DNA of 64,000 nt from Desulfomonile tiedjei DSM 6799 (GTDB lineage Bacteria; Desulfobacterota; Desulfomonilia; Desulfomonilales; Desulfomonilaceae), in assembly GCF_000266945.1 (NCBI RefSeq), contig NC_018025.1, positions 372,001-436,000 on the forward strand, in the 5' to 3' direction. Below are positions 1,128 to 41,229 of the stretch, piece after piece. Made by a program: the position numbers and the translations under genes. Below the pieces are notes generated by a model. It had not been told where the DNA came from. It did not search any database and saw only the letters and a program-made list of their open reading frames with translations. Position 1 is the first letter of the stretch. Each line of letters starts with the position of its first letter.

Positions 1128-1705
1128 GCGGCTTTCTATAGTCAGTGCCAAAAATTCTGTCGTTTATCCCGCGTGTGAATTACAGGATATTGGTAGGGAC
1201 CGGCGTCTTAGCGTCTTGAAACAGTCTCAAAAGTCGAAATTTATCCCAGACCGTGGCACGAAGTTCTGGTCGTCCTGCTGGGCTGATTGTAGGGGCGGGC
1301 CTCGTGAAACAGTCTCAAAAGTCGAAATTTATCTCAAATCGTGGCACGAAATTCTCATCATCTTCGCGGCCTGATTGTAGGGGCGCCCCTCGTGGGTGCC
1401 CGGTAGTGACCGGCCTCCGTGCCGGTCATTGCAGGAGGGCAGGCACGAGACCTGCCCCTACAGGGATGATGAATCGTGGCACGATTTGTTCTGCATTCAA
1501 GACTTTTGAGACAGCCTCCTCGTGTCCGCCCAAACAAGGGTAGGCACTAGGCCTACCCCTACGAAGATGGCGAATCGTGGCACGATTTGTTGTGCATTCG
1601 AGAATTTTGAGACAGTTTCTCTCTGCCGGTCCATCGTAGCGATATCATTTATTAATATTGAAGATGTGCCGGCACGGAGGCCGCACCTACCAATACACTT
1701 TTTCT
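1128..1705. repeat. Composite repeat island
   Basis: Several repeat types are packed together. An approximately 88-bp unit starting GAAACAGTCTCAAAAGTCG occurs twice in direct orientation (from 1218 and 1306). Inverted relatives ending TTTTGAGACAG(T/C)(T/C)TC lie at 1469-1516 and 1570-1618, each containing the palindrome ATCGTGGCACGAT. A GC-rich unit with CCGGCCTCCGTGCCGGTC and GGCAGGCACGAGACCTGCCC (1376-1470) is the reverse complement of 2727-2822. Fragments of the R4 family lie at 1133-1205 and 1622-1703. No coding sequence is supported between 947 and 1800. Confidence 0.75.
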
Positions 1706-1800
1706 GAATCAGACATTAGTTTTGGCGGTCAAGCCATTCCATTGGAATCGTGGGGGGACATTCTTTATAACGAAATGTCCCCGAGCTTGTACCAACTCTG

Positions 1801-2571
1801 TTAGTTCAATAAGCCGATTTTCTGAAGAATCTCTCGGACGGCCTTGTAGGATGGAGCTTCCGCATCAATTTCGATAAGCGGTTTTCCCTGCAAATCGAGA
1901 TCTACCAAAACATCATCGTACGGAATCATTCCTTCGGGAGAATACGGGAGCTTATTTATCTCCTTCTTTGTTCCTTCGGGAAGATCCTCGACCGATCCCT
2001 GAACCCGGCTTAGAATGAGATGTTTGTTGCGGACGCGGCCACCCAATTCATCGATGAGCTCAATGATACGGCCGATGGTTCGCAGGCTCCGAGGGGCAGG
2101 GTCCGAAATTATGAAGAGATGATCCACTTCTTCTTCGGTCCGCCGGGACAGATGTTCCATACCCGCTTCATTATCGATGACCACAAACGTATAATTTGAC
2201 GTGAGTTTGGCGATTATATCCCGCAGTATGTTATTGGCCATACAATAACACCCAGGACCTTCAGGTCTTCCCATGGACAGAAAATCAAGGTTTTTCGTCT
2301 CTTCCAGGGATGCCTGGATCTGATACTCCATGAAACGATCCTTGGTCATGCCTCCCGGAATGTTGTCTCCGATTTTTCTTGTATCTTCACGCACACAACC
2401 AACGCTCCGAGGCTGCCTTATTCCCAGCACCTCATGGAGATTCGAGTTTGAATCCGCATCTATCGCCAAAAGCGGCTTCTTGCCGCCGTCCACGAGAGCC
2501 TTAATCATAAGCGCAGTAATGGATGTCTTTCCCACTCCGCCTTTACCTGCAACCGCCAATGTTGTTCCCAT
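1801..2571 (-). CDS. cooC: CooC-family nickel-insertion ATPase for CO dehydrogenase
   Basis: A 256-residue P-loop ATPase of the MinD/CooC type. It carries the deviant Walker A GKGGVGKT (residues 9-16) with the signature lysine at 10, an Asp-rich DADSN at 38-42, and the CxC pair in GPGCYC (Cys108, Cys110), which in CooC proteins sits at the dimer interface and binds metal. DNEAGMEHLSRRT (133-145) is also typical of CooC. The family uses ATP to help load nickel into the C-cluster of carbon monoxide dehydrogenase in the cytoplasm. The start at 2571 follows AAGGA; an upstream in-frame ATG would add 25 unlikely residues. No CO dehydrogenase gene is visible in the window. It lies next to a MetE-like gene on the same strand, 360 bp away across a repeat, so cotranscription is uncertain. 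Confidence 0.85.
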   Translation of the reverse strand: MGTTLAVAGKGGVGKTSITALMIKALVDGGKKPLLAIDADSNSNLHEVLGIRQPRSVGCVREDTRKIGDNIPGGMTKDRFMEYQIQASLEETKNLDFLSMGRPEGPGCYCMANNILRDIIAKLTSNYTFVVIDNEAGMEHLSRRTEEEVDHLFIISDPAPRSLRTIGRIIELIDELGGRVRNKHLILSRVQGSVEDLPEGTKKEINKLPYSPEGMIPYDDVLVDLDLQGKPLIEIDAEAPSYKAVREILQKIGLLN

Positions 2572-35120: not shown

Positions 35121-36539
35121 TCACTGCACTTCGTCCAGTACAGCTCCCTCATGGTTTAGTAATCGAATTTTCAAGGGCATGCGCCCGATTGCATGTGTCG
35201 AGCAGCTCAAGCATGGATCGAAAGCTCGAATGACGGCTTCCACACGATTGAGCGCACCATCGGAAATTTTCTCGCCGTTTACAAATCGTTTGGCGACCTG
35301 CAACACGCCTCGGTTCATTGCCAGGTTATTGTGGCCGGTTGCCACAATAAGATTCACCCAGGTTATGAGTCCTTGCTCATCCACTTTATAGTGGTGAATC
35401 AGCGTTCCTCGCGGTGCTTCAACAACTCCCACGCCGAAGAAATGGTTCGGCTGAGCGAAGGCTCGTATGTGGTGACTCAGGATATCGGGATCCTTGAGTA
35501 TTTTCTCGGCGGTCTCTATGGAATAGAGGATTTCTACCAGCCGAGCCAAATGATTGTGAAACGCACTCATCACAGGTCCGCGGTCGAGTCTTATAAACTC
35601 GGCCCATTCCTGGTCGGCACGAGGTGTTCCGCATCCGGTACACACATTCAATCGGGCAGCGGGTCCCACTTTGTAGATTCCATCGGGATACCCGAGCGCC
35701 TTGTAGTAGGGTGATTTGAGGTAAGAATTGGGTTCTACGGCCTCGCCGATGTAATCCATATAGAGCGAGGGATCCACAGAATCCACGAGGAATTTTCCTT
35801 TAGAATCGATAAACCGAAGCCTACCGTCTACATGTTCAAGGTTTCCCTGGTCATTGACGAGCCCCAGGAAGCTACTGGGAAAATTGGCGAAAGTTCTGAT
35901 CTCTTCCTGACATTTTTCCAGCAGGTTTTTGAACCAGACCAAGGTCCGATCCAGGATTTCATACGCTTCCGGCAGCATGGCAAGCATGCTATCACGATTT
36001 TCTTCCGATAAGGCTTCGTTCACCCCTCCGGGGACTACCCACGCCGGGTGAATCCGTTTTCCTGAAATTAACTGAATAATCTGCTGGCCGATTTGCCTGA
36101 GTCGAATGCCATCCAGAGCCACCTGTGGATACTTCTCCGCTATCCCGAGAATATTCCTCTGAGTCGACGGGGCATCCATTCCCAGCAAGAAGTCAGGCGA
36201 CGAAAGATGAAAGAAACTCAATGCATGCGACTGGATGTATTCGCCACAGTTCAAGAGACGTCTGAGCATGTCGGCAGTCCGGGAAATGCGAACCCCCAGG
36301 ATTGCATCGCATGCTTTTGCCGAAGCCAGGGAATGACTGATAGGACAGATCCCGCAGATTCTTTCCACCAGAGACGGCATTTCGTAAAATGGCCGGCCTT
36401 CGCAGAATTTTTCAAATCCGCGGAACTGAGTTACCTGAAAAGAGGCATCTGCAACATTCCCCTTATCGTCCAAGAAAATCGATATACTGCCATGGCCTTC
36501 GATTCTGGTTATCGGCTCGATTACGACTTTATGCTCCAT
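35121..36539 (-). CDS. hoxH: NiFe hydrogenase large subunit HoxH
   Basis: A 472-residue catalytic subunit of a group 3d, NAD-linked NiFe hydrogenase. The N-terminal nickel-ligand motif is RICGIC (in SLVERICGICPISHS), the C-terminal one DPCLSC, followed by STH and a 23-residue extension that a maturation protease (HoxW type) must remove; no such gene is in the window. The RIEGHGSISIFLD start region is standard. The ATG at 36539 is chosen as GGGAGG lies seven bases upstream, whereas the ATG at 36545 would sit one base from it. Last gene of hoxEFUYH, 20 bp after hoxY. Confidence 0.95.
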   Translation of the reverse strand: MEHKVVIEPITRIEGHGSISIFLDDKGNVADASFQVTQFRGFEKFCEGRPFYEMPSLVERICGICPISHSLASAKACDAILGVRISRTADMLRRLLNCGEYIQSHALSFFHLSSPDFLLGMDAPSTQRNILGIAEKYPQVALDGIRLRQIGQQIIQLISGKRIHPAWVVPGGVNEALSEENRDSMLAMLPEAYEILDRTLVWFKNLLEKCQEEIRTFANFPSSFLGLVNDQGNLEHVDGRLRFIDSKGKFLVDSVDPSLYMDYIGEAVEPNSYLKSPYYKALGYPDGIYKVGPAARLNVCTGCGTPRADQEWAEFIRLDRGPVMSAFHNHLARLVEILYSIETAEKILKDPDILSHHIRAFAQPNHFFGVGVVEAPRGTLIHHYKVDEQGLITWVNLIVATGHNNLAMNRGVLQVAKRFVNGEKISDGALNRVEAVIRAFDPCLSCSTHAIGRMPLKIRLLNHEGAVLDEVQ

Positions 36540-36559
36540 CGGCATGCCTCCCGTTCAGG

Positions 36560-37171
36560 TTATGCTCCGAACCGGGTTTTTCCTTTTAAATTAGGGACCC
36601 GTCCTTCCAGGAGTTCACCTAACACGAAATGGATTGCATCAGTCGGAGGTGGACATCCGGGTAAGAACAAATCAACGTTCACGATTTCGTGTACCGGCCG
36701 TGCTTTTTTCAAGAGTCGCGGCAGCCCGACATGTGGAATCTGCGGATTCAATGTGGCATTTTCCAAGTAAGCACGTTTGAACACTTCTTCAACCTTGTAC
36801 TGATTGCGCATCGCAGGGACATTGGCGGTCACTGCACAATCTCCGAAGGAAACGAGCAGCTTTGTGGCGAGTCTGATTGCATGGACTTTTTCCTCATCCT
36901 CATCACTACTCACTGCTCCTTCAATCAGAGTGAGGTCTACCGCTCCAGGAAACTTCTTGGCGTCAACGATGGGGCTGTAGACGATATCCACCAGTTCCGC
37001 AATCGCTACAATCTGTTGATCGATGTCCAGAAAAGACATGTGACATCCGGAGCATCCGTCCAGCCACACGGTGGCTACCCTTACTTTGCCCGATTCATTG
37101 GTCGCGGCTGTTTCCTGAGGCCTACCATTGTGGCCGTTTGTGAAATGACCGTTGGGCTTGATTTCTGTCAT
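36560..37171 (-). CDS. hoxY: NiFe hydrogenase small subunit HoxY
   Basis: A 203-residue short-type small subunit carrying one proximal 4Fe-4S cluster. Ligands come from [22 protein letters not shown] and [11 protein letters not shown]. There is no signal peptide or distal cluster domain, as expected for cytoplasmic Hox. The N-terminal 25 residues are hydrophilic and variable. The start overlaps the hoxU stop as ATGA, suggesting coupling. It forms the hydrogenase dimer with HoxH. Confidence 0.95.
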
Positions 37172-37932
37172 TTCTGTCCCTCCTTCCGCATGAGTTGCAG
37201 ATAGGGCAGGAACTGTCTTCGTTTAATCATTTCCGCAACGGACTTGCCCTTTTCCGACAAAGCCCCCGTGGGGCACACCTGTATGCATTTTCCGCAACCA
37301 GTGCACGTTTCCGATTCACCCCAGGGCTGGTTGAGATCGGTGATTACTCGTGCGGTGATTCCGCGTCCCGTCAAATCCCAGGCATGAGCGCCTTCGACCT
37401 CATCGCAGACGCGAATGCAGCGTGCACACAGTACACATCGATTATGGTCGACGGAGAAACGTTCGTGAGTAGCGTCAATGTTGTGTCGAGGATAAAGATA
37501 GTTAAAGTGGACGTGAGTCATCCCTAATTCCACTGAAAGGTTTTGAAGCTCGCAATGGCCGTTGGAAACACATACGGAACACACATGGTTTCGCTCGGTG
37601 AACAGAAGTTCAAGAATTTTTCTGCGATACGAAACCACTCGATCGGAGTTTGTTACGATTTCCATATCCTGTCTCACGAGAGTGACACAGGACGGCATCA
37701 ACCTGGGAGAGCCCTTTACTTCCACTATACAGAGTCTGCATGCGCCGCGTTCGGTAAGGCCGTCCAGGTGACACAATGTTGGAATATTGATTCCATTCTG
37801 CCGGGCGACGGACAATATGGTTTCATCCTCACGAGCCGTTACGTCTTTGTCATCGATCTTGAGCATCAACAAGCGCGTGGGGTTCACGTCCGTGCGCGAG
37901 GTCTTACCAGGCAAAAAAGGTTTCTCCGTCAT
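37168..37932 (-). CDS. hoxU: NAD-linked hydrogenase diaphorase subunit HoxU
   Basis: A 254-residue electron-transfer subunit related to the N-terminal part of NuoG. It carries a plant-type 2Fe-2S site ([18 protein letters not shown] with a later Cys), an N3-like site with ligands around [15 protein letters not shown], and two 4Fe-4S motifs, [12 protein letters not shown] and [12 protein letters not shown]. It links HoxF and HoxY electronically. The start at 37932 overlaps the hoxF stop as ATGA; 16 more residues upstream are possible but lie in hoxF. The length is normal. Confidence 0.95.
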
Positions 37933-39584
37933 CTTGCCGCCTCCTTGATATCCGCGATATGGCAAGCTCCAGCCGGGCATATCTTGTCGTGAATATGCGC
38001 CGTATACTCATCCCGGAAGTAACGCAGCGTGCTCATGACCGGGTTGGGGGCGGTTTGGCCCAGTCCGCACAAACTGGTACTCTTAACAAGATCGGCAAGT
38101 TCTTCTAATGCCGGGATATCGGCTGCGCAGCCTGCACCGCTTGAGATTTTGGTCAGAAGGTTATGGATTTGAGTGGTGCCGACCCTGCAAGGGATACACT
38201 TGCCACATGATTCACTCATACAGAATTCCATGAAGAATTTGGCGACGTCTACCATGCAGGAGGTCTCGTCCATAATGATGAGGCCGCCGGAACCCATGAT
38301 TGAACCTGCTTGAGCTAAGGACTCATAATCGACTGGCATGTCGAGGAATTGTTCCGGAATACAGCCTCCGGATGGTCCACCTGTCTGAACTGCTTTGAAT
38401 CGCCGGTTTTCAGGGATGCCACCGCCGATTTCAAATACAATGTCTCGCAGAGGAGTTCCCATAGGTATTTCGATCAGACCGGTATTATTGACCCTCCCGG
38501 CCAAAGCGAAAACCTTTGTTCCTTTGCTCTTTTCCGTACCGATATCGGAAAACCACTGTCCTCCGTTTCGAACGATTGGAGGAATGTTTGCAAATGTTTC
38601 GACGTTGTTAATGAGTGTAGGATAACCCCATAAACCCATTTCCGCGGGGAAGGGAGGTCGCGGACGAGGTGTCCCTCGCCGGCCTTCGATGGAGCTTATG
38701 AGTGCAGTTTCTTCTCCACACACGAATGCTCCTGCCCCCAGCCTGATTTTGATGTCAAATTCGAAAGTCGTGTTAAAGATGTTCTTTCCGATGACACCGA
38801 GTCTTTCCGCCTGGGCTATGGCTGTGCGCAATCTCTTGACTGCAAGCGGGTACTCGGCTCGTACATAGATAAAGCCATGACTCGCTCCGACAGCGCTGGC
38901 GGCAATTGCCATGCCTTCAATCACACGGTGAGGATCGCTTTCAAGAACGCTTCGATCCATGAACGCTCCCGGATCGCCTTCATCAGCGTTGCACACGATG
39001 AATTTCGTCCGGTTCATTGCTTTTGAAACGGCTGTCCACTTCAGTCCTGTGGGGAAGCCTGCACCACCACGACCGCGCAATCCGCTGGTGGTTATCTCCT
39101 GAATAACTTCCGAAGGGGTCATTGCTCTCAAAGCGGTATAAAGCGCTTCATATCCCCCTTCAGCAATGTAGTCTTCGATGCTTTCAGGGTCTACTTTTCC
39201 GCAGTTTTCCAGGACAATCTTCCGCTGTCGCTTGAAAAAGGGAAGTTGATCGGATAGGGCAAGACGACTGACCGGTGAACCTCCCAGTGAATCCAGAATG
39301 TCCGATACGTCAGATACGGAAACTGCCTGGTAATAGACCCCATCAGGCTCCAGATAGATGAGCGGACCTGCTGCGCATAATCCGAGGCATCCCACTCCCT
39401 TTACCTTGATCCAGTTTTCCAGACCCCTCCTGTTCACTTCTTTTTCGAGACTATCCTTGACCAGACCGGATTGGCAGGAGAGACATCCGGCAGCGACGCA
39501 CACGTTTATCTTGTGCCTTATCCCCTCCTGCATATCCCTTTCAATTTTTGCGATTTGTTGGAGGTCTTCAAACGTCAGTGTCAT
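37929..39584 (-). CDS. hoxF: NAD-linked hydrogenase diaphorase subunit HoxF
   Basis: A 551-residue NAD(H)-binding flavoprotein of the NuoF type with an extra N-terminal thioredoxin-like 2Fe-2S domain (CVAAGCLSC and [12 protein letters not shown]). The FMN-site motif [16 protein letters not shown], the [17 protein letters not shown] motif, and the 4Fe-4S ligands [10 protein letters not shown] and [11 protein letters not shown] are all present. It is where electrons pass between the hydrogenase and NAD. It overlaps hoxE by 17 bp. The ATG at 39584 is preferred because 12 upstream residues are unlike the family. Confidence 0.95.
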
Positions 39585-40080
39585 GGTTCGTCCACCTCCG
39601 AATCCTGTCCAGTACTTCATGAGAGGCCATACGGCCTTTCACTTCACCATCGAACACCACCGCAGGCGCGAGACCGCACGATCCGAGACATCTTGCGGTG
39701 ACGAGCGATATTTTTCCGTCAGGGGTAGTCTCTCCAGGTGCTATACCGTACTCATCTCCGATGCTGTTGAGTATGGCAGCAGCGCCGCCGATATAACATG
39801 CCGTCCCCTTACAAACCACGCAGGTATGTTCGCCGGGCGGTTTCATAGTAAAATAATGGTAGAACGTTGCGACTCCATACACTTGACTGAGGGGTACATG
39901 GAGCGCACCTGCCACGTACTTCAGAGCTTCGAGATCGAGGAATCCGAAATGCTCCTGAACTGCGTGGAGCGTCTCAATAAGCGCATGAGGAGCGTGTCCG
40001 TGAACACGCATTGTCCTGTTTACGAATCGCCATCTGCTGTCCTGAGCCTCTTTTGTTTTTGCTCCCTGTTTGGCCTCCAT
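39568..40080 (-). CDS. hoxE: NAD-linked hydrogenase subunit HoxE
   Basis: A 170-residue NuoE-like thioredoxin-fold protein with a 2Fe-2S cluster bound by CVVCKGTAC and CLGSC. AGGAGG lies five bases before the ATG at 40080, so the long upstream frame is not used. FGFLDLEALKYVAGALHVP and VYGVATFYHYF match the NuoE family. First gene of the operon; a sigma-54 promoter candidate is about 130 bases upstream of it. Confidence 0.93.
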   Translation of the reverse strand: MEAKQGAKTKEAQDSRWRFVNRTMRVHGHAPHALIETLHAVQEHFGFLDLEALKYVAGALHVPLSQVYGVATFYHYFTMKPPGEHTCVVCKGTACYIGGAAAILNSIGDEYGIAPGETTPDGKISLVTARCLGSCGLAPAVVFDGEVKGRMASHEVLDRIRRWTNHDTDV

Positions 40081-40581
40081 TGCGGCCTCCTGTTTCTGAG
40101 GTTGACACGGACGATTTTGGGCTTTCTTTCGTCTTCTTCGAAGAAACGTTACGACAAAAAAAGATGGAACCTGAGGGTCGCAGGTCCGCACTTGTGCGCA
40201 TGCATCCCGCCAAAAAATAGAGCAATTCCTATGCCACCCGGCGGATTCCAAACCCCATTGTAAATATTTGATTATTAACTAGTTTCGGTTAGCGGTCTGC
40301 GAATTCCCGATTCAGGACCGACAGGAGGTGTTCGATCTGCTGACATGCCGTATTTATCGGCATCAGATGCGTCATTTTCCAAGAATGGCGGAACATATGG
40401 GGGCGATGAGGGAAGAAGCATCGCAGGTGAAACATTACGAGATCGCGGGAGAATCAAACCAGGACTTAGAGACGTCACTGCAACAATCACAACCAGCAGA
40501 CTATGAACGCTGCCCTCCTTGGAATCAGACGCTCCAATCTAAATATTGCCTGCGTGATTTCACAAAGACTCGTTGCTTCAT
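40081..40581. other. Upstream region of the hox operon
   Basis: This 501-bp stretch separates hoxE from the candidate selenoprotein, both on the minus strand. It holds the sigma-54 site below. A minus-strand frame around 40275-40490, with a hydrophobic start region (LLVVIVAVTSLSPGL), lacks a well-placed start and is not called. Confidence 0.4.
40221..40236 (-). promoter_or_regulatory. Sigma-54 (-24/-12) promoter for hoxE
   Basis: On the minus strand TGGCATAGGAATTGCT fits the sigma-54 consensus TGGCAC-N5-TTGCW with one difference (T for C) and the exact ten-base distance between GG and GC. Transcription would begin near 40210, about 130 bases before hoxE. It implies activation by a bacterial enhancer-binding protein; a PilR-type one is encoded at 44779-46170, but no link is shown. 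Confidence 0.6.
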
Positions 40582-40923
40582 TCACCGCGAGGCCGAGAGC
40601 AATGCTGTTCGTATCATGTTCTCGGGAGGCACCCCCGACGCCTCATACCTGCGTCAAGTGAATCCAAATGCAGTGCTTTCACGGGCTGAAGGCTCAATGT
40701 CTAATCCATTGATTTGAACTGTGGGACTTCCTAAGAAACGCAGTTTCTCCGCTTGTTCCAGCGTAGTGACCAGAATCGTTTCGATCTTAATCGAAAGATT
40801 AAGAATTCTAGCAATATCTGTAACTAACTGGACCGTTGGACGGGTGTTCACACATCCTTCTGAACCGAGTATCCTGACATGAATGGATTCAGGACTGACT
40901 TCAGATCGCAGTAAGTCAGCCAT
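40582..40923 (-). CDS. Thioredoxin-fold protein with in-frame UGA: candidate selenoprotein (113 aa)
   Basis: The frame starts at 40923 (AAAGG upstream) and runs 89 codons to TGA at 40654-40656. It then continues for 23 codons, RRYEASGVPPENMIRTALL, to a TGA at 40582. The protein has Cys24 in GSEGCVNTRPTVQ and the cis-Pro loop in RFLGSPTVQINGLDIEP. As I recall the family (small thioredoxin-like proteins sometimes labelled alkylmercury-lyase-like), the UGA position is a conserved Cys followed by RxY and GVPP, which is what is read here. Fifteen bases after the UGA, 40638-40622 on the minus strand can form UCGGG...CCCGA with loop GGUGCCU, SECIS-like in position. A recent nonsense mutation of Cys is the alternative. 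Divergent from a sensor kinase; upstream of hoxE. Confidence 0.6.
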
Positions 40924-41229
40924 TTTTGTTACCTTTCTGCTTTTCTGTCTGATTCCATGCAGGTTGGATGAATTCTGGCTCCTACCAGCATATCGGCGAT
41001 ATCCTTCATACATCTTGCCAAGAACCAGAGCGGATTATATCATAATTCAACCGTGTCCGTTCTCTCTTATCCATCCCCCTGAAGAAAAACGTCTATCAAA
41101 GATTATACTATCTTAATGACATGAGTCATATGACAGGCACACGGAGAGGAGTTATGAAATTGAACTCTCGCAATTTCCAAAGATTATGTAATTTGGTATA
41201 ATTAACGAAAAACCGCCGGAACGGCCATT
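40924..41229. other. Divergent promoter region
   Basis: This 306-bp space lies between the minus-strand candidate selenoprotein gene and the plus-strand sensor kinase, so it must carry promoters for both. I see no repeat or clear regulatory palindrome. Confidence 0.4.

Follow-up and report, generated by a model that had tools for sequence, protein, structure and literature searches.

The question raised by the window, a stretch of 64,000 nucleotides from Desulfomonile tiedjei DSM 6799, is whether a TGA inside one of its genes ends the protein or is read as selenocysteine (Sec). The frame from 40923 to 40582 on the minus strand is interrupted only once, by TGA at 40656-40654 (codon 90), as the original prediction had stated and the translation bore out. 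Read through this codon, the gene encodes 113 residues, from an ATG at 40923-40921 to a stop codon at 40584-40582 that is itself UGA, and a possible ribosome-binding site, AAAGG (40932-40936, minus strand), was read from the sequence 8 nt before the ATG. By the evidence given below, UGA has two roles within this one gene, Sec at codon 90 and stop at its end.

The read-through protein matched the NCBIfam model NF049942, "DF family (seleno)protein", with 108 bits (cut-off 70) over the complete profile (1-96 of 96), and its UGA was aligned to the conserved C-terminal Cys/Sec site, which is Cys or UGA in the 35 other loci compared. It was the only DF member found in the genome of D. tiedjei DSM 6799. 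Pfam matches to Thioredoxin_3 and DUF2703 were both below threshold. The family first appeared in 2025 under the name "hypothetical protein DF", as a predicted selenoprotein of Desulfosediminicola flagellatus, with no UGA homologues in other organisms and no function given (PMC12013277), and it is entered in Table 1 of a 2026 review (PMC13188914). The window gene adds a member to this known, recently described selenoprotein family.

Homologues were surveyed in 395 genomes of the phylum Thermodesulfobacteriota (that of locus L022) and in 18 genomes of the order, and three more homologues came from a further class. Most strong matches in the phylum and order genomes carried one internal UGA. Over 36 homologous loci the aligned site (40654-40656 in the window, minus strand) was UGA in 27 and Cys in 9, and nothing else; the proposal that UGA stands in place of the Cys of homologues was thus borne out at exactly this codon. 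All 13 members of the subfamily of the window gene have UGA, and three of these come from its own genus and family. In the tree, the 13 short-loop members, the window gene among them, formed an all-Sec group (support 98/93), and two changes suffice for the distribution of Sec and Cys forms. Cys24, Gly65-Ser66-Pro67, Cys/Sec90 and Arg91 were invariant among 28 aligned members, with Sec written as C; in two of them the residue at position 24 is Sec as well. Two loci of one genus, L040 and L042 (both at 1492-1812, plus strand), have UGA also at the first conserved Cys (GUPAK and GUTAK), so that both conserved residues would be Sec in these proteins; only a weak hairpin follows their first UGA.

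These data also bear on the possibility that the UGA really ends the protein, with a nonsense mutation or a sequencing error having cut the gene to 89 residues. UGA and a Cys codon are only one base apart, which would suit such an event, but 26 other loci, the three of the same genus and family among them, have UGA at this codon; the codons after it are constrained, and the hairpin described below is conserved. The residues 3' of the UGA (RRYEASGVPPENMIRTALLSASR) matched the conserved end of the DF family in the alignment, as had been expected of them. Close relatives were checked for a true stop with decay of the downstream codons; they kept the UGA, and pN/pS between the window gene and L053-L055 was 0.36-0.46 over the 20 codons after the UGA and 0.25-0.34 before it. 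The codons after the UGA appear constrained by purifying selection, as measured on few codons. A nonsense mutation or sequencing error, contradicted by the UGA of the relatives, was rejected as highly improbable.

The SECIS hairpin was assessed by conservation, because, in the 60 nt that follow the UGA, folding energy taken by itself did not stand out (z = 0.36). Within the subfamily these downstream codons align without gaps, and 20,000 codon-synonymous shuffles (Python), which left every protein unchanged, served as the control. The best-supported hairpin, GAGGCGUC-GGG-GGUGCCUC at 40626-40644 (minus strand), was paired in 93 of 104 cells over 13 genes, while the shuffles averaged 57.6 and did not exceed 74; for the window gene alone, its 8 pairs were reached in 0.2% of shuffles. 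A C-G pair of this hairpin is exchanged for G-C in locus L039. The hairpin drawn originally, UCGGG-loop-CCCGA at 40622-40638 (minus strand), does exist, and its pairing excludes that of the other; it was paired in 41 of 65 cells over the subfamily (p = 0.027) and is preserved mostly within the taxonomic family of the window. In the window sequence it is slightly more stable, with -9.1 kcal/mol including two further pairs against -7.4 kcal/mol for the hairpin at 40644-40626, and the choice of the latter therefore rests on conservation.

Bacterial SECIS elements have been modelled with a loop of 3-9 nt, a stem of 4-16 bp, G in the first two loop bases and a distance of 16-37 nt from the UGA (PMC13188914). 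The hairpin at 40644-40626 agrees with this geometry (8 bp, loop GGG, loop 17 nt after the UGA); against the energy limit of the same model (-7.5 kcal/mol or below), it is borderline, with -7.4 kcal/mol as drawn and -8.1 kcal/mol in a variant pairing, and the hairpin at 40638-40622 has -9.1 kcal/mol. Over the whole family, hairpins beat their own synonymous shuffles in UGA genes and not in Cys genes (p = 1.4e-4, a value that is indicative only because the sequences are related). The prediction of a conserved SECIS-like hairpin after the UGA stands, with a different element in the leading place: the hairpin at 40644-40626 appears to be the better-supported SECIS, overlapping the one drawn earlier without being identical to it.

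The machinery for Sec was looked for and found in the genome (6.53 Mb, 2 contigs): a tRNA-Sec with anticodon UCA is present, and profiles matched selA (599 bits), selB (404 bits) and selD (368 bits). The selD gene, at G000:C1:3873142-3874065 (L018), is interrupted by a single TGA, which is what a SelD that is itself a selenoprotein should show. Among genomes with UGA forms, selA was present in 24 of 26, the two exceptions being incomplete assemblies; it was also present in all eight checked genomes with Cys forms, so its presence does not separate UGA from Cys forms.

Elsewhere in the genome, at G000:C1:3562734-3564838 (L064 7735-9839), a tRNA-Sec-like tRNA-Cys with anticodon GCA lies directly before a second selB, which corresponds to the known selC*/selB* arrangement (PMC7609411). 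This pair raises the possibility that the UGA is read as cysteine, by a tRNA-Cys of the unusual selC* type that has a SelB-like factor of its own, and some such tRNAs in other organisms do have a UCA anticodon (PMC7609411). The anticodon here, GCA, pairs with UGU and UGC and not with UGA, so this tRNA should not read the UGA of the DF gene, and a standard tRNA-Sec(UCA) is available; reading as cysteine was rejected and is considered barely credible.

The match to the family, the column of UGA and Cys, the Sec machinery and the conserved hairpin lead to the reading of codon 90 as selenocysteine, which, on this comparative evidence, is almost certainly correct; the original interpretation is supported by the homologues, the relatives, the machinery and the hairpin alike. 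Very probably, too, the product is a selenoprotein with a thiol/selenol function of some kind. Decoding would follow the usual bacterial pathway: SelD would activate the selenium from which SelA makes Sec-tRNA-Sec(UCA), and SelB would bind the hairpin directly downstream of the UGA and deliver Sec-tRNA-Sec to it.

In the protein, codons 65-67 (40723-40731, minus strand), encoding the invariant Gly-Ser-Pro, presumably form the cis-proline loop of a thioredoxin fold. The structural model, predicted from three sequences (mean pLDDT 70), is thioredoxin-like, and weak Foldseek matches are likewise consistent with this fold; residues 79-88 of the model, just before Sec90, are unreliable, and no Cys24-Sec90 distance was therefore taken from it. 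The invariant Cys24 (codon at 40852-40854, minus strand), the presumed partner of Sec90, would act with it as a pair beside the Gly-Ser-Pro loop.

Downstream of the DF gene on the same strand, the window contains at 35121-40251 (minus strand) a set of NAD-linked [NiFe] hydrogenase-like genes, recognised by eye (NuoE-, NuoF-, diaphorase-, small- and large-subunit-like). A functional link between the DF gene and these neighbours was considered and rejected; the neighbourhoods of relatives differ, and no hydrogenase was seen there.

Among the relatives, 10 loci have a MerR-family gene upstream of the DF gene and on its strand. The distance is within about 10-130 bases in L053-L055 (Sec forms) and L052 (Cys form) and several hundred bases in the Cys forms L024, L025 and L028-L030; L048 also has an upstream MerR gene. 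Seven of the MerR proteins were scored, and for each the best NCBIfam model was the mercury MerR (131-145 bits, under the cut-off of 150.85). The three metal-binding Cys positions of MerR are kept in these proteins. A TTGACTCCGTAGTATGGTACGGGGTG-like sequence was found upstream in 11 loci with 23-29 of 32 matches (background maximum 20), the pattern having been drawn from these loci themselves; it resembles the mer operator. In the window locus there was neither an adjacent mercury-type MerR gene nor a mer-like operator, both of which are present in L053-L055, and no ortholog of the relatives' MerR was found in the D. tiedjei genome at E 1e-15.

Fusions of the domain were also observed. A Cys-form DF domain is fused to a MerC mercury-transport domain (over the Pfam cut-off) in L048 (1054-1788, minus strand) and L052 (994-1788, minus strand), and in each case a mercury-type MerR gene precedes the fusion. 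In Streptomyces plasmid proteins (L074 6001-6960 and L075 6001-6969), a DF-like N-terminal domain is fused to the alkylmercury lyase MerB, and their genes are divergent from a heavy-metal regulator gene; the DF-like domain scored 61-68 bits, just under the cut-off, and MerB 135 bits. Literature searches turned up nothing specific on a thioredoxin-MerB or mercury link of the DF family.

Because relatives are placed behind mercury-type MerR genes or fused to MerC and MerB, metal handling is taken as the most likely role of the Cys24/Sec90 pair, which may bind, pass on or detoxify Hg(II), organomercury or a similar thiophilic metal. Affinity for selenium is a hallmark of mercury chemistry. For the DF protein of D. 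tiedjei itself, the chances of such a metal role seem evenly balanced; the role is extrapolated from relatives and may no longer be the same, since D. tiedjei lacks the MerR ortholog and the operator. That the family as a whole is a thioredoxin-fold family handling mercury or similar thiophilic metals, with Sec as a metal ligand, Hg(II) or organomercury bound by Cys24/Sec90, MerR control in relatives and MerB- or MerC-type partners, is a tentative proposal, held with slightly less than even confidence. It is also conceivable, with a confidence somewhat lower again, that the UGA encodes Sec in a general thiol-disulfide or peroxide-reducing enzyme and that the mercury link was a later recruitment in some branches. 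A redox function is presumed for most thioredoxin-fold selenoproteins that are still uncharacterised (PMC13188914), and it would suit the thioredoxin-like fold and the missing MerR gene and operator in D. tiedjei and most UGA clades. The DF proteins have, however, no CxxC or CxxU, Cys24 and Cys/Sec90 being 66 residues apart, and the links to MerR, MerC and MerB are seen in separate parts of the tree, the three nearest relatives included.

With metal handling as the preferred reading, the analysis gives a family of no known function a concrete, testable role, selenol-based mercury handling. It also confirms a selenoprotein gene which ordinary gene calling would truncate, and shows that, within one phylum, most DF members are Sec forms, against the one species for which Sec had been reported.

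The DF protein shares with Thioredoxin_3 and the redox-active disulfide proteins (PF13192, TIGR00411, TIGR00412) the thioredoxin fold, an N-terminal Cys and the Gly-Ser-Pro loop, but it scores below their curated cut-offs, has no CxxC and carries its second active residue at position 90. The mercury-related selenoproteins SaoL (a MerB-like lyase), SaoT (thioredoxin-like) and a putative mercuric transport protein (PMC13188914) are likewise selenoproteins with kinship to mercury families, but none of their models matched the window protein, and the Sec motifs differ. With the DF family as published, the gene agrees in its full-length NF049942 match, Cys/Sec at the same site and a SECIS-like hairpin downstream. 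There, Sec was reported in one species only and no function was given; here, UGA forms, present in 27 loci, are far more widespread than published, and the association with mercury-type MerR, mer-like operators, MerC and MerB suggests a link of the family to mercury.
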